Positions 1,491 through 49,270 of a DNA stretch of 54,910 nt are shown here, piece by piece. Origin of the DNA: Prevotella sp. (GTDB lineage Bacteria > Bacteroidota > Bacteroidia > Bacteroidales > Bacteroidaceae); contig JAFZSR010000012.1 of assembly GCA_017619275.1 (NCBI GenBank), forward strand, positions 1-54,910, in the 5' to 3' direction. The position numbers and the translations under genes were made by a program. Each line of letters starts with the position of its first letter. The first letter of the stretch is position 1. The notes beneath the pieces are model-generated. The model was not told the DNA's origin and ran no database searches. It saw only the letters and a list, made by a program, of their open reading frames with translations.

Positions 1491-1947
1491 TAACCGCAGA
1501 TTACGCAGATTATGCAGATTTTGAATCATTCACGAATCTCTCGTACTGCAGGCTTTTGCTTTTAAAATTTATTAATAATCCTTTGTTTATTCTCGTTGCT
1601 TTTAAATAATGAATCAGCTGGGCCTTATGAATGTCGACAATCGCATCAACGGTTTTCAATTCAACTATCAAACTGCCAAAACAAATAAAGTCAGCCTTAT
1701 AATATGTCTTGAGTGGTCGGTCTTTATAGAAGATATTGATGAGTTTCTCACGCTCATAAGGAATATTCCTATCCTCAAATTCTATTTCCAGCGCATCGCC
1801 ATAGGCAGATTCCAAAAATCCAGGTCCCAACTCACGATGAACAGCCATCGCTGCACCTATGACAGCAAACGTTTGTTCATCCCTCCTCTTATCATCTACC
1901 ATATAGATAATCTGTAGAATCTGAGAAATCTGCGGAATCTGTGGTTA
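1491..1947 (-). mobile_element. GxxExxY nuclease cassette with 9-bp-iteron inverted repeats
   Basis: The left end (1491-1522) reads TAACCGCAGATTACGCAG and continues with CAGATT units. The right end (1909-1947), read on the other strand, is TAACCACAGATTCCGCAG followed by more CAGATTnnn units. The two ends are therefore inverted repeats, each built of CAGATT iterons with a 9-base period. They enclose one gene of the GxxExxY family. The cassette fills the space between the pheT stop (1951) and the yebC start (1480) almost exactly. The enclosed gene is visibly more AT-rich than pheT. Mobility is inferred from this layout; no transposase or clear target duplication was seen. Confidence 0.65.
1510..1902 (-). 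CDS. GxxExxY family protein (PD-(D/E)XK-like small nuclease)
   Basis: This is a 130-residue protein with the family signature at G28, E31 and Y34 (GFLESAY region). It also has a nuclease-like core: D71 in YKADFIC and E81-L-K83 in IVELK, which fits the PD-(D/E)XK arrangement assigned to this family (PDDEXK_3). The length is typical for the family. The cellular role is not established. The stop codon lies inside the left inverted repeat and the start lies just inside the right one, so gene and repeats form one unit. Base composition is AT-rich compared with pheT and yebC, which suggests later arrival. It reads in the same direction as its neighbours and may be co-transcribed with them. Family assignment is firm; nuclease activity is inferred. 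Confidence 0.85.
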   Translation of the reverse strand: MVDDKRRDEQTFAVIGAAMAVHRELGPGFLESAYGDALEIEFEDRNIPYEREKLINIFYKDRPLKTYYKADFICFGSLIVELKTVDAIVDIHKAQLIHYLKATRINKGLLINFKSKSLQYERFVNDSKSA

Positions 1948-16517: not shown

Positions 16518-16645
16518 AACCCACCCCCAACCCCTCCCGTGCGGGAGGGGAGCTATATAGACAAACAAATGGAACAAGAAATAGAGCAGACTGCAGCAAA
16601 TGTAACTAAACTCCCCTCCCGCACGGAAGGGGTTGGGGGTGGGTT
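16518..16645. repeat. CCCACCCCC hairpin element covering the lon-tgt junction and tgt start
   Basis: The left arm begins AACCCACCCCCAACCCC and includes the hairpin CCCCTCCC-GTGC-GGGAGGGG. The right arm is its reverse complement with one or two changes and ends GGGGGTGGGTT. Together they form a 128-base element starting four bases after the lon stop. The tgt ATG at 16569 lies inside it, so the element encodes the first residues of Tgt. The inner sequence (GAGCAGACTGCAGCAAATG) is closely similar to that of the copy inside the AEC transporter gene. Confidence 0.85.
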
Positions 16646-17786
16646 TTATACTTTGCAGCACACCGACCCTTACTCTTCTGCACGTGCCGGCCTTATCACC
16701 ACCGACCATGGAGAGATTGAGACACCCATCTTCATGCCCGTGGGCACCTGCGGCAGCGTCAAAGGGGTTCACTTCAGCGAGCTGGAAGAGCAGGTGAAGG
16801 CACAAATCATCCTGGGCAACACCTACCATCTTTATTTGCGCCCAGGACTCGACACGCTGCGCAAAGCTGGCGGACTGCACCACTTCAACACTTGGCAGCA
16901 CCCTATCCTCACCGACTCGGGCGGCTTCCAAGTTTTCTCGCTCACCAGCATCCGCAAGCTACGCGAAGAGGGCTGCGAATTCCGTTCACACATTGATGGA
17001 TCGAAACACATCTTTACGCCTGAGAATGTGATGGATACGCAGCGCATCATCGGTGCAGACATCATGATGGCGCTCGACGAATGTCCGCCCGGCGAGAGCG
17101 ACTATCAATACGCCAAAAAATCGCTCGGATTGACGCAACGATGGCTGGAACGCTGCATCAAGCGGTTCAACGAAACCGAGCCACTCTACGGCCACCGACA
17201 GGCGCTCTTCCCCATCGTGCAGGGGTGCAAATACAAAGACCTGCGCCAGGATGCAGCCAAGCACATTTGCGACCTGCTGCCCACCATTGGCGACGGGCAG
17301 GGCGGCATGAGCATCGGCGGACTGGCAGTGGGCGAACCCACCGAGGTGATGTACGAGATGATTGAGGTGGTGAACGAAATACTGCCCAAGGACCGTCCAC
17401 GCTACCTCATGGGCGTAGGCACACCGCAGAACATCTTGGAGGCCATCGAGCGCGGCGTCGACATGTTCGACTGCGTGATGCCTACCCGCAACGGGCGCAA
17501 CGCCATGCTCTTCACCTATCAAGGAACGATGAACATGCGCAACAAGAAGTGGGAGCACGACTTCAGCCCCATCGACGCCGACGGCTGCTACATCGACCGC
17601 CTCCACACCAAGGCCTACCTGCACCATCTCTTCAAGGCGCAAGAGCTGTTGGCACTGCAGATTGCCAGCATCCACAACCTGGCTTTCTACCTGCGCCTCG
17701 TCGGCGACGCACGCCAGCACATCATCAACGGCGACTTCACACAGTGGAAGCGCTCAGTCATCAACGACTTAGGGCGAAGAATATAA
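16569..17786 (+). CDS. tgt: tRNA-guanine transglycosylase
   Basis: Tgt exchanges guanine-34 for preQ1 in tRNAs on the way to queuosine. From ATG 16569 the protein has 405 residues. Conserved parts are ARAGLITTDHGEIETPIFMP, the general-base region TDSGGFQVFS, GGLAVGEP and the nucleophile D301 in MFDCVMPTRNGR. The canonical zinc motif CxCxxC is absent; the region reads DADGCYIDRLHTKAYL with a single Cys, although the later His in SIHNLAF remains. I believe other Bacteroidetes Tgts share this, but could not check. Residues 1-25 or so (MEQEIEQTAANVTKLPSRTE...) come from the palindromic element; without them the length is close to the usual 376-380. A GTG at 16539 would extend it further into the element. 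The LptF/LptG-type gene follows after three bases. Confidence 0.95.
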   Translation: MEQEIEQTAANVTKLPSRTEGVGGGFYTLQHTDPYSSARAGLITTDHGEIETPIFMPVGTCGSVKGVHFSELEEQVKAQIILGNTYHLYLRPGLDTLRKAGGLHHFNTWQHPILTDSGGFQVFSLTSIRKLREEGCEFRSHIDGSKHIFTPENVMDTQRIIGADIMMALDECPPGESDYQYAKKSLGLTQRWLERCIKRFNETEPLYGHRQALFPIVQGCKYKDLRQDAAKHICDLLPTIGDGQGGMSIGGLAVGEPTEVMYEMIEVVNEILPKDRPRYLMGVGTPQNILEAIERGVDMFDCVMPTRNGRNAMLFTYQGTMNMRNKKWEHDFSPIDADGCYIDRLHTKAYLHHLFKAQELLALQIASIHNLAFYLRLVGDARQHIINGDFTQWKRSVINDLGRRI

Positions 17787-34713: not shown

Positions 34714-35916
34714 ATGAAAAAGACACTCATCATCGCCGCCATCATCATTGCCGTGGGCGTGGCAGCCTATTTCCTGCTGGCCGGCGGACAGGCCAAGCAA
34801 ACCGTGGAATTCGATACCGCCAAGGTTGAGAAGACCACCATCCAGAACAGCATCACCGCCACGGGCACCATCGAGCCTGTCACCAGCGTCACCGTGGGTA
34901 CGCAGGTGAGCGGCATCGTCAGCCGACTCTATGTCGACTATAACTCGGTAGTGAAGAAAGGGCAGGTCATCGCCGAACTCGACAAGACCAACCTCACCAG
35001 CGAGCTGCGCACCGCCAAAGCTAACCTGAGCAGCGCACAGAGCACGCTCAACTACGAGCAGGCCAACTATAACCGTTACAAGACGCTCTACGAAAAAGGA
35101 CTGGTGAGCGCCAACGACTATGAGACAGCACACCTGTCATACCTAAAGGCAAAAGACCAGGTGACCACCTCGGCACAGAGCGTGCAGCGCGCACAAACCA
35201 ACCTGGGCTACGCCACCATCACTAGCCCCATCGACGGCATCGTGCTCTCGAAGAGCGTGGAAGAGGGACAAACCGTTGCCGCCTCGTTCAATACGCCCGA
35301 GCTGTTCACCATCGCACAAGACCTGACCGACATGCGCGTCATCGCCGACATCGACGAGGCCGACATCGGCGGCGTAAAGGAAGGGCAGCGCGTGATGTTC
35401 ACCGTCGACGCCTTCCCCGAAGACCACTTCCAGGGACAGGTGACACAGGTGCGTCAGCAGGCCACCACCGAGAGCAACGTCGTCACCTACGAGGTGGTGA
35501 TTGGTGCGCCCAACAACGACCTGAAGCTGAAGCCCGGTCTAACGGCCAACGTCACCATCTACACCCTTGAGAAACCCGACGTGCTGGCAGTGCCGAGTAA
35601 GGCCCTGCGCTTCGTGCCGGTAGAGACCATCCTCACCGAGGAACAGAAGATTGAAGACGTGGAAGCACGGCAGAAAGTGTGGACGCTGGAGGGCAACACC
35701 TTTAAGGCACACGCCGTGGAGACCGGCATCACCAATGGCGTGCTCACCGAAATCATCGGCGGCATCAACGAGGGCACCGAGGTCGTGACAGGCTTCAATA
35801 TCACTGGCGGCGAAATGCCGGAAATGGGAGGCGGACAGGCACAGAACCCCTTCATGCCCAGACCTCGTGGCAATAACAGACAGAACGGGAATGGTCAGCA
35901 ACAGCCAAGAAGATAG
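34714..35916 (+). CDS. Periplasmic adaptor (membrane fusion protein), MacA-like
   Basis: This 400-residue HlyD/MacA-family adaptor connects a MacB-like ABC pump to the TolC channel. One N-terminal membrane helix (residues 5-23) leads to the lipoyl half-motif TGTIEPVTSVTVGTQVSG (about 50-67). A coiled hairpin (about 90-150), the second lipoyl half with ITSPIDGIVLSKSVEEGQTV and beta-barrel domains follow. The C-terminus is a Gly/Asn/Gln-rich tail (GGGQAQNPFMPRPRGNNRQ). Its stop is one base before the DUF559 cassette. Order and spacing show one operon with the flanking exporter genes. Confidence 0.92.
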   Translation: MKKTLIIAAIIIAVGVAAYFLLAGGQAKQTVEFDTAKVEKTTIQNSITATGTIEPVTSVTVGTQVSGIVSRLYVDYNSVVKKGQVIAELDKTNLTSELRTAKANLSSAQSTLNYEQANYNRYKTLYEKGLVSANDYETAHLSYLKAKDQVTTSAQSVQRAQTNLGYATITSPIDGIVLSKSVEEGQTVAASFNTPELFTIAQDLTDMRVIADIDEADIGGVKEGQRVMFTVDAFPEDHFQGQVTQVRQQATTESNVVTYEVVIGAPNNDLKLKPGLTANVTIYTLEKPDVLAVPSKALRFVPVETILTEEQKIEDVEARQKVWTLEGNTFKAHAVETGITNGVLTEIIGGINEGTEVVTGFNITGGEMPEMGGGQAQNPFMPRPRGNNRQNGNGQQQPRR

Positions 35917-35917
35917 C

Positions 35918-36410
35918 GGACCCTCCCCCCAGCCCCTCCCTGCAGGGAGGGGAGAAGATAGTTCTGCTAATAGTGTAACCAATGAGTTATAAGACTGCAT
36001 CACCAGACAGGTACAAGATACTGAAAGCATTCGCCAGAGAAAACCGAAAGAATGCTACTGTGGCAGAACAAGTATTGTGGGACTATCTGAGAGCCAACCG
36101 GCTTGGGGTAAAGTTTCTAAGACAACATGTTATAGGTGACTACATTGTTGACTTTGTATCACAACACAGTGGGCTTGTAATTGAAGTAGACGGCGGGTAT
36201 CACGCTGAGCCGAAACAAAAAGAGGACGACGAGTGGAGAGAAAAAAGACTGGAGCAGATGGGCTATCACATTCTGCGTTTCTCAAACGAAGAGGTTCTTT
36301 ATAATATAGAAGATGTAATAGAACAAATAGAACATTATTTCAATGAATGAATACAATACCGACAATGTAACCACTCCCCTCCCTCACAGGGAGGGGCCGG
36401 GGGAGAGTCC
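35918..36410 (+). mobile_element. DUF559 nuclease cassette with hairpin inverted repeats
   Basis: The left end (35918-35954) begins GGACCCTCCCCCCAGCCCC and carries the hairpin CCCCTCCC-TGCA-GGGAGGGG. The right end (about 36373-36410), read on the other strand, begins GGACTCTCCCCCGGCCCC with the same hairpin. These inverted repeats enclose a DUF559 nuclease gene. The unit fills the gap between the MacA-like stop (35914-35916) and the ATPase ATG (36415). It is clearly more AT-rich inside than the exporter genes. The ends are close relatives of the CCCACCCCC elements at 16.5, 37.2 and 39.0 kb. Mobility is inferred. Confidence 0.7.
35982..36350 (+). CDS. DUF559 endonuclease-domain protein
   Basis: This 122-residue protein of the DUF559 family belongs to the Vsr-like restriction-endonuclease fold. 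Visible core residues are D57 (DYIVDFV), E68 and D70 (VIEVDG), H74 and the C-terminal GYHILRF strand. It starts MSYKTASPDRYKILKAFAREN, with the family N-terminal helix ATVAEQVLWDYLR. No biochemical role is established for such small stand-alone members. It is the only gene in an inverted-repeat cassette inside an ABC-exporter operon and has no apparent link to export. Codon and base use are AT-rich compared with its neighbours. Its stop region overlaps an ATG (36343) that could extend the next gene. Confidence 0.88.
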   Translation: MSYKTASPDRYKILKAFARENRKNATVAEQVLWDYLRANRLGVKFLRQHVIGDYIVDFVSQHSGLVIEVDGGYHAEPKQKEDDEWREKRLEQMGYHILRFSNEEVLYNIEDVIEQIEHYFNE

Positions 36411-36414
36411 GGAG

Positions 36415-37161
36415 ATGCGTCGTATTATCATTGAGCTTCAAAACGTGAAGCGCTACTTCCAAGTGGGTAGCGAGACGGTGAAAGCCTTGCGCGGCGTGTC
36501 GTTCAAGATCTACGAGGGCGAGTTCGTCACCATCATGGGCACCAGCGGCAGCGGCAAGTCGACGCTGCTCAACCAGCTGGGATGCCTCGACACCCCCACC
36601 AGCGGCGAGTACTTCCTCGACGGCGTCAGCGTGCGCACTATGTCGAAGACGCAGCGTGCTCACCTGCGTAACCGCAAGATTGGCTTCGTGTTCCAGAACT
36701 ACAACCTGCTGCCCAAGACCACTGCCGTGGAGAACGTGGAGCTGCCGCTGATGTATAACTCGCAATACAGTGCTGCCGAACGCCGCGAGAAAGCCATCAA
36801 GGCCCTGCAAGCCGTGGGACTGGGCGACCGTTTGGAGCACAAGAGCAACGAGATGTCGGGCGGACAGATGCAGCGCGTGGCCATCGCTCGCGCACTGGTG
36901 AACGACCCTGCCGTGCTGCTGGCCGACGAGGCTACGGGTAACCTCGACACGCGCACCTCATTCGAGATGCTGGTGCTCTTCCAAGAGCTTTACCACCAGG
37001 GGCACACCATCATCTTCGTCACCCACAATCCGGAGATTGCCGAATACGCCAGCCGCAACATCAATCTGCGCGACGGCAAGATTCGCGAGGACACCATCAA
37101 CACCAACATCAAGTCGGCAGCCGAGGCACTCGCCGCACTGCCCATACCGAAGGACGACTAA
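36415..37161 (+). CDS. ABC transporter ATP-binding protein, MacB-like
   Basis: This 248-residue ATPase starts MRRIIIELQNVKRYFQVGSE. Walker A GTSGSGKST is at residues 42-50, the signature MSGGQMQRVAIARAL near 145-159, Walker B AVLLADEATG near 164-173 and the H-loop VTHNPE near 202. It powers the MacB/LolD-type permease encoded downstream. A longer reading from ATG 36343 would add 24 residues translated from the DUF559 cassette end (NVTTPLPHREGPGESPE), in the same element frame as in Tgt and the AEC protein. The shorter start fits the family better. Confidence 0.92.
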   Translation: MRRIIIELQNVKRYFQVGSETVKALRGVSFKIYEGEFVTIMGTSGSGKSTLLNQLGCLDTPTSGEYFLDGVSVRTMSKTQRAHLRNRKIGFVFQNYNLLPKTTAVENVELPLMYNSQYSAAERREKAIKALQAVGLGDRLEHKSNEMSGGQMQRVAIARALVNDPAVLLADEATGNLDTRTSFEMLVLFQELYHQGHTIIFVTHNPEIAEYASRNINLRDGKIREDTINTNIKSAAEALAALPIPKDD

Positions 37162-37164
37162 CAA

Positions 37165-37319
37165 AACCCACCCCCAGCCCCTCCCGTGCGGGAGGGGAGC
37201 CAATATAGACGGGGAGATGGTATTGTTGAATAAATACACACATGTTATTAACTAAATAAAAAAGGAGACCCCAAGAGTAACCAAACGCCCCTCCCGCTCG
37301 GGAGGGGTTGGGGGTGGGT
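37165..37319. repeat. CCCACCCCC hairpin element in the ATPase-permease gap
   Basis: The left arm (from 37165) and right arm (to 37319) are inverted copies of the AACCCACCCCC..CCCCTCCCG repeat. Between them are about 85 AT-rich bases that include the ATATAGAC segment also seen after the left arm at 16.5 kb. It starts three bases after the ATPase stop and ends two bases before the permease ATG, so it is the whole intergenic spacer. Confidence 0.85.
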
Positions 37320-37321
37320 AA

Positions 37322-38542: not shown

Positions 38543-39559
38543 ATGGAAAACCTGGAAATCATGATGACGCTCTTTGCCATCGTCATCGTGGGTTACATCG
38601 CTGGAAAAACGGGCTATATGGGAGGCGACTTCGACCGTCGCCTCTCTAATATTATCATCGACATCACCTGCCCGGCGCTCATTCTCTCTTCCACCATGGG
38701 CGGCACCCTACCCCACCGCGACATGATTCTGCCGCTGCTGCTCATCAGTCTGCTCACCTATCTTTTTTTGACTGGCGTAGCCTTCCTGCTGCCCCGCTAT
38801 CTCTGTTCACGACGTGAAGAGCAGGGCGTGGTGGGCTTTGCCCTGATGTTCGGCAACGTGGGCTTCATCGGCTATCCCGTCGTCGCCTCCATCTTTGGCC
38901 ATCAGGCCGTGTTCTACGCCGCCGTGCTGAGCGTGGTGAACACCTTCGTCGTCTTCACCGTGGGTACTATGCTCATTAACCCACCCCCCACCCCTCCCGT
39001 GCGGGAGGGGAGTCTGAATAGACTTGCAACAGAGGAATTAACGGAACAGGCTACTGCAAATGTAACCAAGCTCCCCTCCCGTACGGGAGGGGTTGGGGGT
39101 GGGTTTGTTGGCTTACTTCTTCGTACTCCCATGCTGGCCGCCTACATGGCCATTCTCATCGTGGCATTGGGCATCGACAACGTGCCGAGCATCATCAGCC
39201 AACCCCTCACCATCATTGGCAACATCACCGTACCCGCCGCTCTGCTCATCATCGGCTCGTCGATGTCGCACCTCTCGGCCCGCACCATGCTGGGCAACCG
39301 CACCGTCTACCTCACCACCCTCTTCCGACTGTGTCTGCTGCCCTTGGCCATCTACTTCCTTTCTCGGCTGGCGGGCTTCTCACCCCTCGTCGTAAGCATC
39401 AACACCGTGGTCATCGCCATGCCCGTAGCCACCTACGGCACCATCCTCTGCCTGAAGTACGGGCGCGACACCACGCTCATCACCGAGGTAACGTTCATCA
39501 CCACCCTCCTCAGCGTGCTCACCATCCCCCTTGCCGCTATGTTTTTCACCAATAGCTAA
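38543..39559 (+). CDS. AEC family transporter with an element-encoded insertion
   Basis: This membrane protein of the auxin-efflux-carrier family (338 residues) has about ten hydrophobic helices, starting METLFAIVIVGYIAG-like (MENLEIMMTLFAIVIVGY). The GNVGFIGYPVVASIFG segment (about 109-124) is typical of helix 4. Residues 146-187 (NPPPTPPVREGS..., ending LPSRTGGVGGG) are not from the family. They are the translation of a 126-base palindromic element, exactly 42 codons, in frame in the loop before PMLAAYMAILIVALG. Without it the length is about 296, normal for AEC proteins. It follows the permease by three bases. The substrate is unknown. Confidence 0.88.
   Translation: MENLEIMMTLFAIVIVGYIAGKTGYMGGDFDRRLSNIIIDITCPALILSSTMGGTLPHRDMILPLLLISLLTYLFLTGVAFLLPRYLCSRREEQGVVGFALMFGNVGFIGYPVVASIFGHQAVFYAAVLSVVNTFVVFTVGTMLINPPPTPPVREGSLNRLATEELTEQATANVTKLPSRTGGVGGGFVGLLLRTPMLAAYMAILIVALGIDNVPSIISQPLTIIGNITVPAALLIIGSSMSHLSARTMLGNRTVYLTTLFRLCLLPLAIYFLSRLAGFSPLVVSINTVVIAMPVATYGTILCLKYGRDTTLITEVTFITTLLSVLTIPLAAMFFTNS
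38979..39104. repeat. CCCACCCCC hairpin element inserted in frame in the AEC gene
   Basis: Left arm ACCCACCCCCCACCCC with hairpin CCCCTCCC-GTGC-GGGAGGGG, and right arm CTCCCCTCCC-GTAC-GGGAGGGGTTGGG ending GGTGGGT. The length is 126 bases, a multiple of three, with no stop codon in the frame used. The centre GAACAGGCTACTGCAAATG matches the copy at the tgt start. Confidence 0.9.
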
Positions 39560-39679: not shown

Positions 39680-42600
39680 TTACTTGCAGATGTGCTTTTG
39701 GCTCTTGCGGTCGTGCTCGGTCTGTGCCTCGATGATGTAGACACCAGCACTCGCCAGCGTGAAGCTGTAATCCGGCGTTTGTGGCTGGGCGGCATGCACC
39801 AGTCGGCCGCCAGTATCGTAGCAGCGCACGCTGGTGAGAGGCTCCTGCGTGGAAGCAATCACCTTGGCGGTCAAGCCCTCGGTGAAGATTTGCAGGTGGG
39901 TCTCCACGGCAGCCTCTTCCAAGTTCAGACTGCGCACCAGGTAGTAGCGGTTCTGCGTCTGTCCGCTCACCTTAAACTTCATGCCCGACTTCAATGGGGT
40001 CAGCGTCCGCTCCACAGCATCATAGAAGGCCACCGAGTCACCCAGATGCTCCACGCCCTCGAACGTCAGCGTGCAAGGTGCACTACTATTTGACTCTACG
40101 CCTACAGGCAGGCAGCGGAACTCGTGTATGCTGTTGATGGTGGTGGCCAGTCGCCCGCAGAGCGTGTAGACGGTGGGCACCTGCTTCAAGTCGCTGTTGA
40201 GGAACACCTCTGTATCCTCCAAGGGCAAGAAGTCGTTGCTGGCACTGAAAAGCTCCCGCACGAGGGCACTGCTCTGCAGACTGTCACGGCGGGCCGTTAT
40301 GACCATGCCAGACAGGTCGGAACCAGCAGCGCGTGTGCGGGCTAGGAGCGGGAACTGATTGTCGGTATCGGTATCCTGCACGTAAGTGGTGATGACGATG
40401 TCCTCGGTGATGTCCTCCAGCACATAATTGCCACTACTGTCTACCACAGGCACAGTCACTTCAGTTGTTGCCTGAACTTCTGGCGTGTCGGGGTCGTCAT
40501 CATCGTCAATCATCAATGGCACCTCTGGCGTGCTGGGGTCGTCATCGTCGTCGTATGTCAATTCAATAGTTTTAGTTTCCATCTTCTGCTGGGTTCCCAC
40601 TACGATGGTAAACTCTTCACTACCATTTTTCACACCAAAGCGCGACTGGGCCTGCATCTCCCTGTTGAAGGTGATGGTAGTTGTGGTTCCAATGTCGTCG
40701 GTGGCGACCACATCGTTATCAGTATAATTCGGGTCGGCCTGTACGAAGAATCCTTGGCCAGGAGCCAACACAGCTTGGGCAGTGGCGAAATGCAATACTG
40801 TTGGGTCGGTTGCATCTTCAACTGTTGGGCTGATCCATTGGTCATCAGCATACTGCACCAAGTGCTGGCCCGTCTTTGTGAGCAGCCAGTATTTCTTCTG
40901 CAGTTTCGGGTTCGCAGCAAAGAAGGCTTCCATGCTCAAGCCACATGGGAAGGGATTCTCCACCAGATAGTAGCCTAAGCTGGATTCGCCAACGGGCACA
41001 GCCTCGGTGAAGAAGCCTGCAGTGGCGGGATAATCATTGTCCTGAGCGACGAAACTATTATTCATTTCTGTCAAGTCTTCTTCCTTGACAGGTAGGCGGG
41101 TGAAGGTTCGCTGGTCACCATATCTGCTGGCTGTAGTCTCCGTCTTCTGAGTTGAAGCTGGCAGCAACAAGTCGGTCTTCAGGCGCCCACGGTTCTTTGC
41201 TCGGTTCTTGATGGCTTGCACGCCCTCGTCGCCTGTAAGCTCCGTATCAGTGCCTCCATCGTTTGCTCCTGTCCACTCATACTTATAATAGTCGTACATG
41301 GTATCCTCCTTTGGCAGTCGAACGATGGCGGGGTTGGTGTTCTTTCCAGTCTTCAGGTTGTTGAGCACCATCACAGAGAACCCTCCCTTGGTATAGTCCA
41401 CGATGGCATCGTTGTAGGTGTTGCTCCACACGCCCTTGATAGCCACATTAGCCTTATTGCCGCCCATAGGCTTATAGCCCAATCGGTCGAGGTAGTCATC
41501 AGCGGCAGCGGTGTTCCAACTCGCTCCATTGTTCACCCACAGTCCCTGCTCTGTCAAGCCGAGGTTCTGCGTCTGGCTGTCGTCATTATTTGCGTATTCA
41601 GCCCCCACTTCGTAGAGCACTGCCTTAGCCTTGTCCCTGCTGCGCTGGAAGATGGCGGGGCTGTAGCGGTCGTAGCCCGTGCCGAAGGTGACAGGCTCGT
41701 AGTAAGTGGTTGTCTGCTGTGCCGCACCATTTGAATTATACCCAGTGCCCGTCACTTTGGCTTGCAAAGGAGTGTCAGTTTCGCCCGATGGTGCATACCA
41801 CTCTCCTGAGATAGTGCCCTGCAGCGGCGAGCCAAGGAGATACCACCGATTCATGTCGAGACGGTACTCCACCCAGGCATTGTTGTAGTTCAGCAGGTGG
41901 GCATTCAGCAGCTCTGCACCGGGCTGGAAGGCAATCTCGTCGCAGCTGTTGATTTGATACATCTCGGCGATGAGGTCGCCCTCACGGCCCTTGTTGGGAT
42001 AGATGTCGTCGCCATTCGTATCTTTGCCGTAGGTGTCGGGCCAGATGTCATAGAGGCGTGCCTGCATGTCGAAACGCAGGATGGGCGTAGCCGTGGCCTT
42101 GGTGGCCACAGTATTATTCGTTTCGTCAGTGACTGTGCCATCCCAGCCGTCCTTATCGCGCAGGTTGGGGAACGGCGACGCTTCGAGGGTCGGCTTTCCT
42201 GCGAGCCCGTCGTAAAGTTGTGGAGCATTACCCCATTCATTGCTCTTCAGCAGGATGTGGGTGCAGTAGAGGGGTGCGAAGCCCTTGCGCAAGATACGAT
42301 CTTTTGCCGTACGATAGTTCGTATAGTTGGTCATATAAGTCTTCAACTTCGAATCGTCGGGCAAATCATCCGATCGGTACAACTCGTTGCTGTTTCTCTT
42401 TGAACCATCAGAAGTAACGGAGGTGGATGTTGTTGTGTTGCCGTCGGCGCGACGCCAGTTCTGGTCGTTGTTCCAGTCGGTATTGTCGGCACCGCCCGTC
42501 CACACCTCGTAGTCGGGCACAATCTTCACATTGATGAGGAGTGTACCATCGCAGGTGTTCTCTCCATCCTCCCTGAAGGGAAGGCTGAGCGTATAGTTAT

Positions 42601-45600
42601 AGCCCTCGCGCACTTGCAGGTATTTATCTTCGTTGTTCACGTCGTCGGTGCCAGTGGTTCCTTCGTCCTCAGCGCTAAAGAGCTTCTTTACGAAATAGAT
42701 ACACAGTCGGTTCAAGTCGTTCTCGTTACCTCCGTTAAACTTTTGGGTGTCGATGGCATTCAAGGTGACAATCTTTCCGAAGATGGGCAGTGACGGAACA
42801 CGTGCTCTCATGGCCTTTTGAATCTTCTTGTCCCACTTCGGGTCGTCGGTGGAAGCCAGGTAGACATTGTAGTCCTCGGAATTGCGAATGACGCTTTCAG
42901 AGCCCTCCGAGCCCACCACGGCATTGCGGATAGGCAGCCAGAGGTAATGCAGCTGGTCTGCGACGTCAGCATCTGGTCCATTCTCTTCCGTTGGCAATAC
43001 CGGCTCTTCGTCTACATAGCCATGCTGCACAGTCTCAAACTGCTCGCGCTTAGCCAGTCGGATACTCAGCACAGGATCGGTGCCTTCGGGGAAGACGTAG
43101 TGATACTCCGAGAATCCGTTCTCGCCCGACACGAAGCCAGCCTTCAGCGTCGGCGCCTTGTCGATTACCTTGATGCGCACGCCCTGCGGCTCGTCGCAGA
43201 AGTAGTACACGTCGTTATGACCGTCATGGTTCAAGGCCTGGTCGAAATAGCCGTCGTGGATAGGACAAGCCACTAAGTAGAAATAGGGATCATCGGCAGA
43301 CGCTCTCTTGGCTTGGGCACTAATCGACGACTGGTGGAGCACCAATTGTCCGGCATCGACGAGTTCCTGCAGATAGGCTATCATGTGAGGAGTCAGTTCG
43401 GGACGAACATCAGTAGCATCGTTAGGATCAGGACTTTGAGGTATGACACCTTCCAGTGAGGTGATGTCGGGATAATAGAGGCGCATCCTGTACAGGGCCT
43501 CATCGAGCCTCACCTCCTCCGTCACAGAGCCAGACTCGGTTTGTACAGTCACCGTCTTCTTCTGCTTGTGATAGTTTTCGAGCGTTGCAAAAATAGGATG
43601 CTCCGTATCATTCTCATCCACAGGCGGTGTCAGGTCGCCTAACCACCAGTCGTAGTTCAGGTCTTGCAACGACACCTCTTCGCCATCGTAGGTGAATCCC
43701 GTCAGCTCGGCTACCAGCGTGGGAATCTTTCCTTCGCATACTTCCAAGTTGTACACATCGTCGTTGGGTTCCATACTAAGGATATGCAAGGGTGGCTCCA
43801 CTTGGAACACACTTGCACGGACACAACTTTCAGAGCAGAGATTGAAAGTGGAATAGATTTCATCTGCTAATCTGTCAGCTGGAATGAGAGCATTTGTGGG
43901 AATGATATAATAGTCGGTGCTGGCCTTCCACGGCAGTTCAGGATAGTTGCCATTCAAGACCAGATATCTAAACCCTTCTGCATCGGTCTCCCTGAAAACG
44001 GGCGACTGCTTGGTAATGGCTTCTCTGAACGAGTAGACGGGCTGTATGGCGTCATTCTCAAAAGTCGTGCTCCATTGGAAATACATCAAGCCTGCACCCA
44101 TATTGGTCTCTGGGGCATCAGATTTCCAAATCTTGGTCTTGCCGCCTAAGAAGGCAGCGTCGAAAGCTGCTCGATAGGCCGCATCAGTATGAGGAAGCGT
44201 GTACTTACCCCTCATGATGCTGTCGGCCAACTCTTCCAAAGAAACGTTTGCCAAACCAGTTTTGCCAGCTTTCAATGTGCTAAGGAACTTATCTTTCTCA
44301 AGGAAGACGAATCCAATATATGGGTTGTCAACTGCATTCGGATTCACTTCGGCAGATGACTTCTGCTTATTGAAGTCTACATTCAGCTTCAGCAGGCGCA
44401 TGTCGACGGTGCCGTCTTTGTCGATACAGATAGGCGTATTGATTTGTGGCTCAATCTCAGGCACAATAGTATACACCTCAATGTTGTCGAGCATGAAGTC
44501 ACCACCCGTGGAGCTGACGCAGTTGTTGTTCACCTCAAGCCAGTGGCGGTCGAACTTCTCTTGCACAATGAACTCAAAGTAGAACTGCTGCCACACAACA
44601 TGATGCAGATTCTGATATGCTCCAGGAATATTGCCAGGCTCGCCTGGTACTGTGCCATCATCAAGCTCATAAACCTGTCCGGGACAGAAGCGGTAGAGCG
44701 TTTCCGTCACCTTCTTGCCTTGCACTGTATGCTCGCCCTTAATGGTCAGCGTGATACCACCAGGACAACGGGAGTCATTTCCGCCTGCTATATTACAACC
44801 CGTAATCCATCCGGAAATCATCAGATGGTCACCGGCACAGAAATCGCCCACGAATGGAGCGGAGCAGATATCGCCCGGCTGCTCAGAGGCATCGATATAA
44901 AGGAAGCCGGACTGATAGCCCTCATCAGGAGCAATGGCATAACCATAACTACCGTTCTGTATGACACCTCCATTATTTCTACTACCATGATTGGCAGGCA
45001 TACACATCTGCTGCATTCCCCATCGTGTTGATTTCTGACCCACCATGGCATAGGCTGCCCAGTTACAGTCGTCACCATCAAATGAATAGTTGGTCTTGTC
45101 GAACGTCAGAGGAATAGGGCTGGAATTGGCAATGGTGCCACCAGGGCCGAAGGGATTAGGATAGTTGGCATGACGCGTGTCACCCACACTGGGGAAGTGA
45201 TAGGTGTCGCCCGCGGGATAGTCGAATGTGATTTTGGCGATGGGCTTACCAGCACTTTGACGCAGGTTGAAGGGGTCGCGTTTGGTACCCTGCACGTAGT
45301 TGATGACACCATTCTCTACATCATTCACCGACCCGTCGACCGATTTCCAAGGAAGCGTCTCGGAGTCCTTATCAAAGATGATGGTGAACTGTGCTATCTG
45401 ATACCTTTTATTATTATTGGGATTTCTCAGATATACTCTGAGATAGGCCTTGTGATTCTCACCTGTGTTCTCAACCTCTTTAACTCCACCATTGCCGTCA
45501 GACGGGTATCGGAACGACACAAAGCGGCTGTCGCCATACGATGTCTTATCATCCCAATAAGGATACATCTTGTCATAGAAGAAGAAACCTTGGTATGCAT

Positions 45601-48600
45601 CATCGTCTCCTTCTACATTTGCCACATTTACCGGGGGAACATCAACTATTACATTCCATCCGCCAAATCCTTGATTTCTTCTCAAAATGGTTCTGATGGT
45701 CGCATTGTCTCTAACAAGATCAACACCTACCATGGTGAATCCCCTACCTTGGAAACGCAAACCGTGTTCTATGATTTCATTTAAATCATCGTTGGAAGTG
45801 ATTTGAGCTTGAAAATACTCATCGGTTATATTATTATTCTGATTCATGGAGTTCTGGAATGAATCCCAATCCGCGGGAGCATTATTATCATTATTATACC
45901 AATGCTTCCACCACGGGTTGAAGTTGTTATCGCCCCCATCATTGACCCTATCCGTGTAGTACACACGGATATAGTCGCCTACCTGTGGGACGACATCACC
46001 CCAAGCTTCCTTATTCCTAAGGGTTATGTCTGGGTTGTAGCCACCCAAACGAATTCCTGTTTGGCCTTCGTCGTATATCTCAACCTCGATGTTGCCTCCG
46101 TTGCGATTAGTAACGGCCGACACCAGATGGTTGTTGAGATAGTCGATGTTGGTGCCATTTCTTATTCCATCATTATATTCCGTTACGTCGTCGTCTTCGC
46201 TGAACACCCAATAGTCAGAGAATATATGGCGTATACCGATGAATTCACCCCTGTAGCCCACTAACTTTTCCTTTTCATAAGCCAATGGCTTGGAGGGGAA
46301 GTGGAACACCTTCGACTCCAACCATTTTTTGTCGTCAACATCCGTCGTCTCTTGTTCGGGTTTTGATGTCAGGTTGGCAGCCATCTCCTTGGCATCCCTC
46401 ATATAGTAGATGTAGCGCATGGTGAGCGACGGCTCCTCCAAATCGTCCTCTAAGGGTGATTCAGGATTTAGATAAGTCATGTCGCTGTAACGCGACACGT
46501 CGGCAGCCACCGTAAAGCGTTTGCCGTCGGAGTTGGTGAAATTGAAATAGCGCAGGGCGTAAGGATTCTGCCCGGCATTGAGATAGGGGTTGCGGTTCCC
46601 TTCGACAGGGTCACCCCAATAGAGCCTCTCGCCAGTGACCATGCCGTTCTTGTAGAGATAGTAGGGCACAGTACCGTCGGAACTATTTAGGCTTACATGA
46701 CTCAACAGGCCCATGATGTCGGTCTCTTTATCGTAATTGTACCAACGCTGGAACATACGATGGTCGTTATCGGCATTTAGCACGGTGGGCATGGAGAACT
46801 GGACGGTCTCACCGAACTTTATATAGTGAGTAATCTCGAAATGGTTGACCTTCTGGGTCCGTTTTTCATAGTTCCACCAGTCAGACTGAGCTTCGGTTGC
46901 CAAGCCCTGCTTTCCGAGATCATACTCACCATACTGCTGGGCATAGTCATAAAGATAAGAAATCTTGTGCGTCACCTCGCGCTCATATTCGGGCGTTCTA
47001 TACCATACAAAGTCGAAGTCGCCACCTGCAACGGCAGCTGCATCCGTATAAGTATAGATTCTTGCATCTGAAACACCTGACACTACTCCATTAGCGACGA
47101 GGTAGTTCTCGTATGCACCAAATCGGAAGTGATTATAGTCGTCCAACTGTTCCAAATGCCACAAGTCGGGATTCTCTGTGTCAAGGTCTGATGCCCCGCC
47201 ACCATAATTCACCATCAAATTCCCAGCAAATTTCAATACCACCTTATAAGTACGGTCTTCATTGAGCGTGGGCACCTCCACGGGCAGGAAGCCCCAAAGA
47301 TTACCTGCATTGCCATTGCTTTGCGTGACGAGATTTCCGTCGGTGGAATGGGTCAGGTAGCGAGGATACTGCAGTGTAACAGATGAAACCTGGCCAGAGT
47401 TAGTACGCACCTTGATAGAATTCAGATGAACGTATGGTAGATCTGACACGTCAACTTCGGCTTTGCCGTTTTCATCGAAAGTACACCTTTTTTCTTCAAG
47501 ATCTCCTCCATTTTGGTCACCACCATCGACCGGCACCTGACGATTCAAAAGGACACGCAGTTCCATACCAGCGGTTCCTTCAAAAACAATCTTTTGACAT
47601 CCTGTTAAATCAGCATAGGTTAAATAGTAGACAGTTCCTGTACCAAATACTACATTACCAGGGTTAAGCGTCTGATTTAAATGACTTTCCACATTTAGGT
47701 TACCGGGCGGAGTAGCGTGGTTCGCATCAGCGCCAACACCATCCCAATAATAGAACATATCAGTGTTCAGCGCAACAGCATCATAACTGTTCGCATTCTG
47801 AACGGTGGCGTATCTGTTGGCGTCTGGGTCTGTGATTATGTATTCGCCATTAGTATTACTCTTTGCACCTAAGACAGATGCCCCTCCAGCATTGGAGGCG
47901 TTCAAATAGTCATTCGTTCCATACTTCTTGATATAGAAAGTCCCATCGGCATCAGCTTCTTCAAGCTGCCAAAGGCCATCCTTATGGTAGGCTGCCGCTG
48001 TTGGCAGCGCCCAAGCATCGTATGTATTCATAATAGAGGGGCGGGTTGACACGTCAGATTCTACAACAGACATTACGATGTTATCAAAGAAATAATCGGT
48101 AGCTTGCCTACGGACTGCCAAGTTAAAGGTAATGGTATTTGTTATACCATTCTGACCATCATGGATTTGAAAATCCTGTGACAGATGCTTCCATCCCGTT
48201 TCAAAATAAACTCTACCCACTCCGTCATTGTTTGTATAAGTACCAGGATTATGATGTCCTTGAGTATCTACATTTGCATTCTGACTGGCTCTATAATCAA
48301 ACTCCAAATGAATCCTCGTACCTTCCGGTAAATTCTCATTAGTGGTGATGAAGAACTGGGTATCCCAATCTTGTGCACCATCGGTATTGGTTGTGTTCGG
48401 ATGGCTAACCTTAATGCCACGGCTATTCCACCTGCCATCATTACTGATTGATGCTTGTTGAATATTATTATTATTAACGCCGCGCTCTTTCTTGCGGAAG
48501 CTACTCACGTCGTTGCCTTCAAGGTTGCCATTAGTGATCAGGCTTTGTCCGGCACCGGAATTGGTGAGATAATGGCGTGGATTGGTAAATCCTGCCACAC

Positions 48601-49270
48601 CACCTCGGGTTTCGCCATTCAAATCAAAGCCAGCATTATCCTGATAATATATAATGTGGGCAACATTGTCCTTTAGTTTTGCGAAGCGCAGGCAGTTACC
48701 GTCGGTGTTGCGGTTGTAATTATGAATCTCTGCCCACACTCTATAATGGTCGCGAAACATAGCCACCGAGGTATTGGCAGCAGCAGAAATCTCAAATCCG
48801 CCATCGGTTCGTTGATGGAATATCAGTGGAGTAGCAGCGCTTTGGTCTGCCGTGCACTTAAACGAACCATCATCCAAATAAACATAATTTCCACTACGGC
48901 TTTGCAGCAGGAACTGATTCTCAGTATCAGTACTTACCAATTTCCACTGTATGTTATGCGTAAACGGGAGATAGTCTTTGGAGCGCACGACATTGCCCGC
49001 GCCCTGGTCTGACAGATAGCTGCGGTCGTAAGCATCATTCTTTTCTGTGACACGGCTTTGGTCAGCATTGATGGCAAGGCAATAGAACTGGACATAGTAA
49101 TAGTTTCCGTCATTGATGATATCAGCGGGATTCACCGTCTCGAAAGCATCGGGCAAGTCAAGATCCTGTGTCTGTGCCTTACTCTGTGTGCTAACAAAAG
49201 ACAAGACTCCGAACAGCATAACCGTGCGGAGCAGTGTGGTGGTACGTCTGAAAAGCTGTTTCATTTTCAT
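39680..49270 (-). CDS. Giant secreted multidomain protein with T9SS-like C-terminal tail
   Basis: This 3196-residue exported protein is one of the longest genes expected in such a genome. The signal peptide ends near residue 33 (VSTQSKA-QTQ). Near 70-200 is a lectin-like segment with repeated YVYLDDGSFK-type strands. Near 245-410 is a jelly-roll, CBM-like region ending FFDNIVMSVV, and a second similar region near 1450-1590 ends FMLDNIEVYTI. A VWTGGADNTDWNNDQNW motif lies near 2260. Around 2905-2935 two 15-residue acidic repeats read DDDDDPSTPEVP-like. The last 85 or so residues (VRCYDTGGRLVHAAQ..., GVYIIEAQTEH) resemble a T9SS type A sorting tail. It is probably displayed on or released from the cell surface. 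Function and ligand are unknown. Confidence 0.85.
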   Translation of the reverse strand: MKMKQLFRRTTTLLRTVMLFGVLSFVSTQSKAQTQDLDLPDAFETVNPADIINDGNYYYVQFYCLAINADQSRVTEKNDAYDRSYLSDQGAGNVVRSKDYLPFTHNIQWKLVSTDTENQFLLQSRSGNYVYLDDGSFKCTADQSAATPLIFHQRTDGGFEISAAANTSVAMFRDHYRVWAEIHNYNRNTDGNCLRFAKLKDNVAHIIYYQDNAGFDLNGETRGGVAGFTNPRHYLTNSGAGQSLITNGNLEGNDVSSFRKKERGVNNNNIQQASISNDGRWNSRGIKVSHPNTTNTDGAQDWDTQFFITTNENLPEGTRIHLEFDYRASQNANVDTQGHHNPGTYTNNDGVGRVYFETGWKHLSQDFQIHDGQNGITNTITFNLAVRRQATDYFFDNIVMSVVESDVSTRPSIMNTYDAWALPTAAAYHKDGLWQLEEADADGTFYIKKYGTNDYLNASNAGGASVLGAKSNTNGEYIITDPDANRYATVQNANSYDAVALNTDMFYYWDGVGADANHATPPGNLNVESHLNQTLNPGNVVFGTGTVYYLTYADLTGCQKIVFEGTAGMELRVLLNRQVPVDGGDQNGGDLEEKRCTFDENGKAEVDVSDLPYVHLNSIKVRTNSGQVSSVTLQYPRYLTHSTDGNLVTQSNGNAGNLWGFLPVEVPTLNEDRTYKVVLKFAGNLMVNYGGGASDLDTENPDLWHLEQLDDYNHFRFGAYENYLVANGVVSGVSDARIYTYTDAAAVAGGDFDFVWYRTPEYEREVTHKISYLYDYAQQYGEYDLGKQGLATEAQSDWWNYEKRTQKVNHFEITHYIKFGETVQFSMPTVLNADNDHRMFQRWYNYDKETDIMGLLSHVSLNSSDGTVPYYLYKNGMVTGERLYWGDPVEGNRNPYLNAGQNPYALRYFNFTNSDGKRFTVAADVSRYSDMTYLNPESPLEDDLEEPSLTMRYIYYMRDAKEMAANLTSKPEQETTDVDDKKWLESKVFHFPSKPLAYEKEKLVGYRGEFIGIRHIFSDYWVFSEDDDVTEYNDGIRNGTNIDYLNNHLVSAVTNRNGGNIEVEIYDEGQTGIRLGGYNPDITLRNKEAWGDVVPQVGDYIRVYYTDRVNDGGDNNFNPWWKHWYNNDNNAPADWDSFQNSMNQNNNITDEYFQAQITSNDDLNEIIEHGLRFQGRGFTMVGVDLVRDNATIRTILRRNQGFGGWNVIVDVPPVNVANVEGDDDAYQGFFFYDKMYPYWDDKTSYGDSRFVSFRYPSDGNGGVKEVENTGENHKAYLRVYLRNPNNNKRYQIAQFTIIFDKDSETLPWKSVDGSVNDVENGVINYVQGTKRDPFNLRQSAGKPIAKITFDYPAGDTYHFPSVGDTRHANYPNPFGPGGTIANSSPIPLTFDKTNYSFDGDDCNWAAYAMVGQKSTRWGMQQMCMPANHGSRNNGGVIQNGSYGYAIAPDEGYQSGFLYIDASEQPGDICSAPFVGDFCAGDHLMISGWITGCNIAGGNDSRCPGGITLTIKGEHTVQGKKVTETLYRFCPGQVYELDDGTVPGEPGNIPGAYQNLHHVVWQQFYFEFIVQEKFDRHWLEVNNNCVSSTGGDFMLDNIEVYTIVPEIEPQINTPICIDKDGTVDMRLLKLNVDFNKQKSSAEVNPNAVDNPYIGFVFLEKDKFLSTLKAGKTGLANVSLEELADSIMRGKYTLPHTDAAYRAAFDAAFLGGKTKIWKSDAPETNMGAGLMYFQWSTTFENDAIQPVYSFREAITKQSPVFRETDAEGFRYLVLNGNYPELPWKASTDYYIIPTNALIPADRLADEIYSTFNLCSESCVRASVFQVEPPLHILSMEPNDDVYNLEVCEGKIPTLVAELTGFTYDGEEVSLQDLNYDWWLGDLTPPVDENDTEHPIFATLENYHKQKKTVTVQTESGSVTEEVRLDEALYRMRLYYPDITSLEGVIPQSPDPNDATDVRPELTPHMIAYLQELVDAGQLVLHQSSISAQAKRASADDPYFYLVACPIHDGYFDQALNHDGHNDVYYFCDEPQGVRIKVIDKAPTLKAGFVSGENGFSEYHYVFPEGTDPVLSIRLAKREQFETVQHGYVDEEPVLPTEENGPDADVADQLHYLWLPIRNAVVGSEGSESVIRNSEDYNVYLASTDDPKWDKKIQKAMRARVPSLPIFGKIVTLNAIDTQKFNGGNENDLNRLCIYFVKKLFSAEDEGTTGTDDVNNEDKYLQVREGYNYTLSLPFREDGENTCDGTLLINVKIVPDYEVWTGGADNTDWNNDQNWRRADGNTTTSTSVTSDGSKRNSNELYRSDDLPDDSKLKTYMTNYTNYRTAKDRILRKGFAPLYCTHILLKSNEWGNAPQLYDGLAGKPTLEASPFPNLRDKDGWDGTVTDETNNTVATKATATPILRFDMQARLYDIWPDTYGKDTNGDDIYPNKGREGDLIAEMYQINSCDEIAFQPGAELLNAHLLNYNNAWVEYRLDMNRWYLLGSPLQGTISGEWYAPSGETDTPLQAKVTGTGYNSNGAAQQTTTYYEPVTFGTGYDRYSPAIFQRSRDKAKAVLYEVGAEYANNDDSQTQNLGLTEQGLWVNNGASWNTAAADDYLDRLGYKPMGGNKANVAIKGVWSNTYNDAIVDYTKGGFSVMVLNNLKTGKNTNPAIVRLPKEDTMYDYYKYEWTGANDGGTDTELTGDEGVQAIKNRAKNRGRLKTDLLLPASTQKTETTASRYGDQRTFTRLPVKEEDLTEMNNSFVAQDNDYPATAGFFTEAVPVGESSLGYYLVENPFPCGLSMEAFFAANPKLQKKYWLLTKTGQHLVQYADDQWISPTVEDATDPTVLHFATAQAVLAPGQGFFVQADPNYTDNDVVATDDIGTTTTITFNREMQAQSRFGVKNGSEEFTIVVGTQQKMETKTIELTYDDDDDPSTPEVPLMIDDDDDPDTPEVQATTEVTVPVVDSSGNYVLEDITEDIVITTYVQDTDTDNQFPLLARTRAAGSDLSGMVITARRDSLQSSALVRELFSASNDFLPLEDTEVFLNSDLKQVPTVYTLCGRLATTINSIHEFRCLPVGVESNSSAPCTLTFEGVEHLGDSVAFYDAVERTLTPLKSGMKFKVSGQTQNRYYLVRSLNLEEAAVETHLQIFTEGLTAKVIASTQEPLTSVRCYDTGGRLVHAAQPQTPDYSFTLASAGVYIIEAQTEHDRKSQKHICK
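40478..40568 (-). repeat. 45-bp tandem repeat coding for acidic DDDDDPxTPEV units
   Basis: Two adjacent copies of a 45-base (15-codon) unit within the giant gene encode DDDDDPSTPEVPLMI and DDDDDPDTPEVQATT. The copies differ at a few bases. The Asp runs could bind calcium or form a flexible linker. Confidence 0.8.

Follow-up and report, generated by a model that had tools for sequence, protein, structure and literature searches.

The 495-bp cassette between the MacA-type and MacB-type exporter genes of a Prevotella sp. genome is, on balance, probably a complete copy of a REPIN-like selfish element, in which a homing-type PD-(D/E)XK nuclease of the DUF559 family would serve as the element's own mobility enzyme. 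Comparison with other genomes shows a mobile unit with linked ends, a nuclease under selection, gene-less kin, and nesting within host genes. That the nuclease acts on the ends, and that movement starts through break repair, we infer. The window, i.e., the whole stretch of 54,910 nt that was analyzed, is contig 110 of a 3.59-Mb assembly in 127 contigs.

Anatomy of the element at the MacA-MacB junction

The element and the related features of the window are as follows.

35917..36411 (+): whole element, 495 bp, with inverted arms; a gap at the orthologous site in the alignment with the related genome G059
35917..35954 (+): left end, a C-rich head followed by a hairpin (35933-35952)
36374..36411 (+): right end, a hairpin (36376-36396) followed by a G-rich head; inverse of the left end
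35982..36350 (+): DUF559 nuclease gene, 122 aa, PD-(D/E)XK/EDxHD-type
34714..35916 (+): MacA-type membrane-fusion protein, upstream host gene
36415..37161 (+): MacB-type ABC ATPase, downstream host gene
36343..36414 (+): part of ORF 36343-37161 overlapping the nuclease stop; it crosses the right end without a stop codon and continues into the MacB-type ATPase, possibly extending the N terminus of the latter
37164..37320 (no strand): gene-less copy of a sister subfamily (GTGC) between the ATPase and permease genes, also in G059
38978..39106 (no strand): gene-less sister-subfamily copy inside a Mem_trans gene, frame open; absent from genome G097
16518..16646 (no strand): gene-less sister-subfamily copy at the start of tgt (named by eye), with the tgt frame running out of the copy
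1491..1947 (-): GxxExxY-type (PF13366) cassette; its gene at 1510-1902 is flanked by inverted arrays of CGCAGATT units, each of about 10 nt

The two 38-nt arms are 74% complementary without gaps and reach a score of 24.5 in a gapped alignment. The hairpin of each arm has the form CCCCTCCC-loop-GGGAGGGG and is separated from the C-rich head by a spacer of a few nucleotides. With a 4-nt loop and up to two mismatches, this pattern occurs seven times in the window against an expectation of 0.03, and the exact stem with a 2- to 8-nt loop occurs 170 times in the whole genome and never in the reversed control. When folded as single-stranded DNA, the left and right ends are only slightly better than shuffled sequences (z = -0.81 and -1.76, respectively), so they stand out by being repeated rather than by being stable. 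A single ORF lies between the arms. It matches DUF559 (PF04480; 117 bits against a cut-off of 20.6; E = 3.6e-34) and the related MTES_1575 family, and the Pfam matches of the element include neither the Y1 family nor any other transposase family. The GC content is 0.43 to 0.45 within the nuclease gene versus 0.55 to 0.62 outside it. The initial annotation had described GC-rich inverted hairpin ends around one AT-rich DUF559 gene, tightly fitted between the MacA stop and the ATPase ATG. The arms, hairpins, single ORF and GC contrast confirm this picture. The fit also holds, with the borders refined from 35918-36410 (one and four bases from the two codons): the element begins on the base after the MacA stop, which ends at 35916, and the ATG at 36415 lies 3 nt past its end. 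The exporter genes are also adjoined by an ORF of 3,196 aa (39680-49270, minus strand), possibly a large surface protein.

The nuclease carries the residues E29, D57, E68, D70, H74, and D83. Profile searches matched it to 3hrl (an endonuclease-like protein; E = 8.3e-32) and to 3r3p (a mobile intron protein, which we take to be I-Bth0305I; E = 8.9e-8, profile positions 39 to 117). The type name PD-(D/E)XK/EDxHD presumably applies to it, partly from general knowledge and partly after the classification cited next. That source, in the part consulted, assigns a gene containing DUF559 to the EDxHD homing endonucleases (PMC9403480). Judged by these matches, the window protein is homologous to a homing endonuclease, and its nuclease fold is predicted from the same homology, which suggests a chemistry unlike that of the REP-associated tyrosine transposases. 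In 36 pairs of nuclease sequences, pN was 0.13 to 0.24 versus a pS of 0.73 to 1.00, values by which the nuclease is under strong purifying selection.

Ends, gene-less kin, and empty sites

The association between the nuclease and its ends was examined by taking 350 nt on either side of each DUF559 domain and aligning the upstream stretch with the reverse-complemented downstream one; a score of at least 14 counted as paired inverted ends. In a genus sample in which 62 of 100 genomes carry DUF559, such ends were found at 93 of 108 loci versus 15 of 1,080 random positions in the same loci, leaving 15 loci without a paired end at this score. These loci comprise 107 places of at least 90 bits and a frame-broken copy on contig 112; weaker places (fragments, frame-broken pieces, and weak matches in long proteins) were left out. 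Among named Bacteroidota contigs, 70 of 79 loci passed versus 8 of 790 controls, and all four flavobacterial loci of this set stayed below the threshold (scores of 9 to 12); an 80th locus, L221, was dropped because it lies at a contig edge. The two sets are not independent, since they overlap and several contigs are identical. In a phylum sample, DUF559 was present in 222 of 395 genomes, and 21 of the best 30 loci among the matches passed versus none of 150 controls. The expectation that DUF559 genes are flanked by such ends far more often than chance is thus borne out in each of the three samples.

Outside the phylum, 12 chosen places, from 11 of 45 plasmid records and 1 of 3 phage records, were read without a control set. 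C-rich hairpin ends were present on both sides on plasmids of Pseudanabaena (two, scores of 64 and 48), Picosynechococcus (17), Deinococcus (49), and Sphingomonas (37), and, in imperfect form, on two Synechocystis plasmids (13.5 and 10.5). Among the same 12 places, the Azospirillum, Sinorhizobium, and Photobacterium loci had unpaired C-rich hairpins on one side only, the Azospirillum score of 14.0 arising from other sequence. C-rich paired ends were not seen at the Geobacillus locus or on the phage contig, whose score of 17 reflects another kind of inverted repeat.

The ends also vary together with the enzyme. End similarity rises with nuclease identity (Spearman 0.46; reached in 0 of 2,000 permutations) over 92 of the 93 loci with ends, L023 being left out, and pairs from the same genome are no more alike than pairs overall (0.295 versus 0.305). 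The ends therefore appear to follow the nuclease lineage rather than the host genome. The subfamily nearest to the window cassette comprises 22 loci in 16 contexts, a spread over many different sites, but gene-less copies could themselves be the cognate allele for homing.

Within each end, head and stem are related by an unusual symmetry, which was examined in 308 units from 156 loci (163 before the removal of repeats). The head matches the reversed, or mirror, stem at a mean of 0.818 and the direct stem at 0.723, and 300 trials in which stems were swapped between loci never exceeded 0.735. The mirror match is the better one in 181 units and the poorer one in 21, and the two tie in 106. At head positions facing a stem T, the fraction of A or T is 0.744, versus 0.322 in the direct orientation and at most 0.517 in 200 swaps; A and T are about equally frequent there (148 and 140 of 387). 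The C-rich head tends to be a mirror copy of its own hairpin stem, and because the units are related by descent, the match is evidence of covariation rather than proof of a fold. Mirror symmetry is of no use to a duplex or to a typical binding site of a dimeric protein; an intramolecular triplex or paired G-tracts would require it. The near equality of A and T disfavors a pyrimidine-motif triplex, with protonated C, as the sole reading of the head. By base-triplet rules, a purine-motif triplex or a G-quadruplex fits both bases opposite a stem T. A canonical four-tract G-quadruplex motif was found in just 94 of the 308 units.

Short, two-ended copies without a gene are common in the stretches of the genome that were read (the window and seven others chosen for holding stem-loops). 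There, a neighbor lies no more than 200 nt away from 32 of 40 stem-loops, and the >< arrangement is seen in 13 of 17 close pairs. Overall, gene-less ends far outnumber gene-bearing ones. The three short relatives noted earlier in the window are real. They cannot be taken for derivatives of the window cassette, a candidate origin ruled out by their differing loops and heads: the cassette has loops TGCA/TCACA and the head GGACCCTCCCCCC, whereas the sister subfamily has a left loop GTGC, a right loop GCAC, GCTC, or GTAC, and the head ACCCACCCCC. The copies at 16518, 37164, and 38978 share the GTGC left loop and the ACCCACCCCC head with a gene-bearing copy located before ispF (identified by eye) in G059 (L093). 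The cassette's own short kin, with the same loop class and a GATAGTTCTGCT-like stretch within the left end, lie on contigs 24, 27, and 28 and, less closely related, on contig 6. At 16518-16646, the tgt-like frame starts inside the gene-less copy, and the tgt N terminus is probably repeat encoded. The Mem_trans transporter gene (38543-39559) holds its in-frame gene-less copy in a loop that in G059 (L250) contains a different, apparently frame-shifting insert.

Empty versions of the MacA-MacB junction, sought in relatives as the initial annotation had proposed, were found. With these and the association of DUF559 with the ends, neither of the two outcomes named there as refuting was obtained. 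The MacA of G059 is 92% identical to that of the window, and a 3,761-nt alignment of the two regions (89% identity) lacks exactly the 495 bp in G059. The alignment places the gap at 35916-36410, which has the same length and is ambiguous by one G, and no target-site duplication of more than 2 nt was seen by eye at this one near-exact empty site. In the best MacA matches among 100 genomes of the same genus, the MacA stop and MacB ATG lie at most 6 nt apart or overlap at 21 of 29 junctions. Since G059 and these junctions are empty, the cassette was acquired as a whole, with no clear duplication of the target. Each of the remaining eight junctions has sequence between the two genes; they hold 16, 26, 33, 33, 54, 90, 91, and 311 nt; one of them (L035) is a lone end of the window-cassette type, and the others contain different sequence or repeats. 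The site thus appears to be usually empty, to tolerate several kinds of repeat, and to hold a complete unit here. Other occupants of this insertion-tolerant spot in other species (L036, L043, L050, L039, L041, and L045) include CGAATTA inverted repeats, GAGAGTTGAAAGTT repeats, and GATGTAAGA-like units.

Two further gene-bearing copies were compared between genomes. The copy before ispF in G059 has an empty counterpart in the window genome, with 7 nt between the matching flanks and, by eye, a small target change. At the same position, genome G092 has a degraded right-end-like piece and G097 other repeats. The start of ispF is a shared insertion spot (L337, L338, and L339 among the loci), being gene bearing in L082 as well as in G059. 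The third copy, frame-broken and on contig 112, is common to the window genome and G059 (93% identity over 2.5 kb) and is not at that site in G097.

In-frame copies within host proteins

Some gene-bearing copies have frames that continue into neighboring coding sequence. Among the 93 loci with ends, the DUF559 frame stays open for at least 30 codons past the right end in 23, past the left end in 10, and on both sides in 6; in 68, a stop codon follows the domain before the right arm has been fully crossed. Frames on the gene strand are free of stop codons across the arms in 69% of cases. A strong general frame bias was looked for in the flanking ORFs and not found: both sides are in frame at 8 of 39 loci, with about 4 expected, a mild bias. 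Nesting therefore concerns a minority of the copies. In G059, the nuclease frame continues into ispF, which lacks its usual start there.

Eight nested proteins were scanned with Pfam, and host domains were found on one or both sides of DUF559 in each. The hosts are leucyl-tRNA synthetase (LeuRS; two cases, at different places), a helicase-type AAA protein (two cases, at the same place by eye), an ABC-F-like protein, an epimerase, a DegT aminotransferase, and a GAF protein. The ends fall below the threshold in three of the eight (L159, L165, and L166). LeuRS recurs as a nested host in the phylum sample (L305, L308, and L329), where other hosts were taken by eye, from their motifs, to be methionine synthase (L312, L314, L320, L322, and L330) and HsdR-like proteins (L310, L313, and L318). 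The residues of the nuclease were checked in 122 domain sequences, namely that of the window, those of the 108 genus loci (the window's again among them), and those of 13 chosen phylum loci. In the 21 nested copies, E29, D57, E68, D70, and D83 are present in all and H74 in 20.

In three genomes that are 99 to 100% complete (G152, G202, and G395), strong LeuRS matches occur solely in nested genes, of 1,127, 1,142, and 1,251 aa; the only matches elsewhere are single ones in G152 and G202 (E = 1.4e-4 and 5.0e-4, respectively). The sole leucyl-tRNA synthetase found in each of these nearly complete genomes thus carries a nested gene-bearing copy with its catalytic residues kept. In the less complete G089 (77%), the single LeuRS match lies within a nested gene, and in G043 (81%), the two listed of three matches fall in one. 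A gene-less copy occupies, by eye, the LeuRS site in L106 at which L115 has a gene-bearing copy, and L106 is also gene bearing at a second site. Open LeuRS frames of more than 900 aa in the genus sample, among the matches listed, range from 941 to 1,059 aa, besides the nested ones of 1,140 and 1,213 aa, a spread that suggests frequent gene-less in-frame insertions. Presence in frame inside essential proteins is unusual for selfish DNA, and these are natural cases of an essential enzyme tolerating an inserted nuclease domain.

Possible mobility and relation to known systems

The GxxExxY cassette at 1491-1947, which had been proposed to share this design with a different nuclease and repeat family, is a parallel case. 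Inverted ends flank 26 of 30 GxxExxY (PF13366) loci versus 2 of 300 controls, and many are built of repeated units of roughly 10 nt. Both types of cassette place a single PD-(D/E)XK-type gene between inverted repeats. In contrast to the DUF559 units, the ends here are arrays of ~10-nt units without a GC hairpin, and the nuclease belongs to a different family. The earlier suggestion of a general class of PD-(D/E)XK-armed cassettes therefore gains support from these loci, with unrelated ends.

To explain the movement of the DUF559 element, the following scheme is proposed. The protein would recognize the folded end, consisting of the hairpin and the mirror-matched head, possibly as a triplex or G-quadruplex in single-stranded DNA, and would cut this end, the target, or both. 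Repair of the break by the host would then insert a copy, either of the whole element or of a derivative that has lost internal sequence and kept the same ends. One point against the scheme is that, to our knowledge, a lone PD-(D/E)XK nuclease cannot transfer strands, which would leave insertion at naive sites to host repair. The loci without paired C-rich ends in the genus sample, among the flavobacteria, and outside the phylum also count against it, as do the small share of nested copies and the weak folding of the ends. A nuclease cut followed by host repair would account for the lack of a clear target-site duplication and for the small target change at ispF. Copies would persist between stop and start codons, or in tolerant loops if the frame stays open.

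This scheme has two main rivals: in one, the nuclease gene homes into repeats that another agent moves, and in the other, a Y1 system carries it. In the former, a less probable but sizable alternative, a DUF559 homing gene has invaded the spacer of repeats that something else moves, and spreads to gene-less copies by gene conversion. The homology to homing endonucleases (3r3p) fits it, as does the placement of a DUF559-containing gene in the EDxHD family in the consulted part of PMC9403480. The LeuRS site that is gene-less in one species (L106) and gene bearing in another (L115), by eye, points the same way, and the repeats of G097 and the degraded piece of G092 at ispF could be counted for it as well. 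It is at odds with the empty junctions of the nearest relatives at MacA-MacB and the empty ispF site of the window genome, and with each nuclease lineage having its own end type whatever the host genome. Another enzyme could indeed move the repeats, because gene-less ends far outnumber gene-bearing ones and Y1 transposase (Y1_Tnp) matches exist in three of the four genomes searched: marginal in the window genome (E = 6.6e-5), clear in G059 (1.5e-18), and present in G097 (4.0e-6). These matches would also suit the second rival, considered unlikely, in which DUF559 has a protective or repair role and travels as cargo of a REP-type transposition system with a Y1/HUH transposase acting in trans; REP/REPIN systems have inverted hairpin pairs of this kind, according to the part of PMC3116915 consulted. 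Against such carriage, the unit contains no Y1 gene, a second nuclease family (GxxExxY) has its own end type, and G092 has a DUF559 gene with no Y1 match in its 76% complete assembly. Moreover, none of 310 ends has GTAG or CGTC on the outer (5') side of its hairpin (GTAG lies on the inner side in 29), but REP-like families lacking these tags are known, as stated in the consulted part of PMC3733652.

Two further explanations are far less probable than these. Hairpins do occur at operon junctions, where they could be static regulatory elements (terminators or mRNA stabilizers) gathered by chance near a conserved repair gene. However, this is very hard to reconcile with the empty sites, the 16 contexts of one subfamily, the lineage-specific matching of ends, the in-frame copies within genes, and a folding little better than that of shuffled sequences. 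The presence/absence patterns already contradict it unless they are assembly artifacts. Nuclease domains inside host proteins resemble inteins, and the nested cases might be read as ordinary inteins or domain fusions. We consider this equally improbable: the Pfam matches of the eight nested proteins include no splicing domain, repeat ends border the nuclease in the nested loci that score at least 14, and units of the same family also lie between genes.

Returning to the DUF559 nuclease as the element's own mobility enzyme, we advance tentatively, with slightly more doubt than belief, a wider reading. The elements may form a transposase-free selfish class spanning four phyla (Bacteroidota, Cyanobacteriota, Deinococcota, and Pseudomonadota), in which a lone homing-type PD-(D/E)XK nuclease acts on its own hairpin and third-strand (triplex or G-quadruplex) ends. 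The class would be compatible with translation and nested unspliced in essential enzymes such as leucyl-tRNA synthetase, and the GxxExxY cassettes would be a second, independent class of the same build. If true, DNA could also move by means of a nuclease alone, a route intermediate between homing endonuclease genes and transposons, and C-rich in-frame insertions in proteins of these bacteria would be accounted for. For REP-like repeats without known tags, the link to a dedicated protein is described as an open question in the consulted part of PMC3733652; a large group of untagged REP-like repeats is now linked to one enzyme family, in a directly testable way. New here are the in-frame gene-bearing copies in host proteins, the mirror match of head and stem, and the membership of the window's gene-less copies in a sister subfamily. 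An association of DUF559 with inverted repeats was not found among the records listed in one open-access literature collection, covered mostly through titles and the beginnings of abstracts, which is weak evidence of novelty, as subscription journals and bioRxiv were outside this scope.

Among known systems, the REPtron/REPIN systems are closest. The parts of PMC3116915 and PMC8266576 consulted describe systems in which one enzyme gene is associated with inverted hairpin repeats, inverted pairs also occur without the gene, and enzyme and repeat coevolve. The window element shares with TnpA-REP (RAYT) systems the single enzyme gene with inverted hairpin repeats, the gene-less inverted pairs, and the joint variation of enzyme and ends. 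The dispersed inverted pairs, 13 of 17 in the >< arrangement, are likewise REPIN-like. The element is REPIN/REPtron-like in its working, but its unit encodes no HUH enzyme and its ends have no outer tag; it has instead a PD-(D/E)XK nuclease, a mirror-matched head, and in-frame coding copies. The EDxHD/Vsr-like homing endonucleases (I-Bth0305I; DUF559) are homologous in sequence, and differ in that the window element is not tied to an intron or intein and has its own hairpin ends, gene-less kin, and many sites. With MITEs and insertion sequences, it has in common short terminal inverted repeats and nonautonomous copies, although the window unit lacks a transposase and a clear target-site duplication at the one near-exact empty site. 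The Rickettsia palindromic elements, as described in the part of PMC10969869 consulted, are about 150 bp long, encode a conserved peptide, lie in frame in protein-coding genes, and have no nuclease gene described. Palindromic copies in frame within coding genes, including that at 38978-39106, are common to both, whereas here the same kind of end also carries a conserved 122-aa nuclease.
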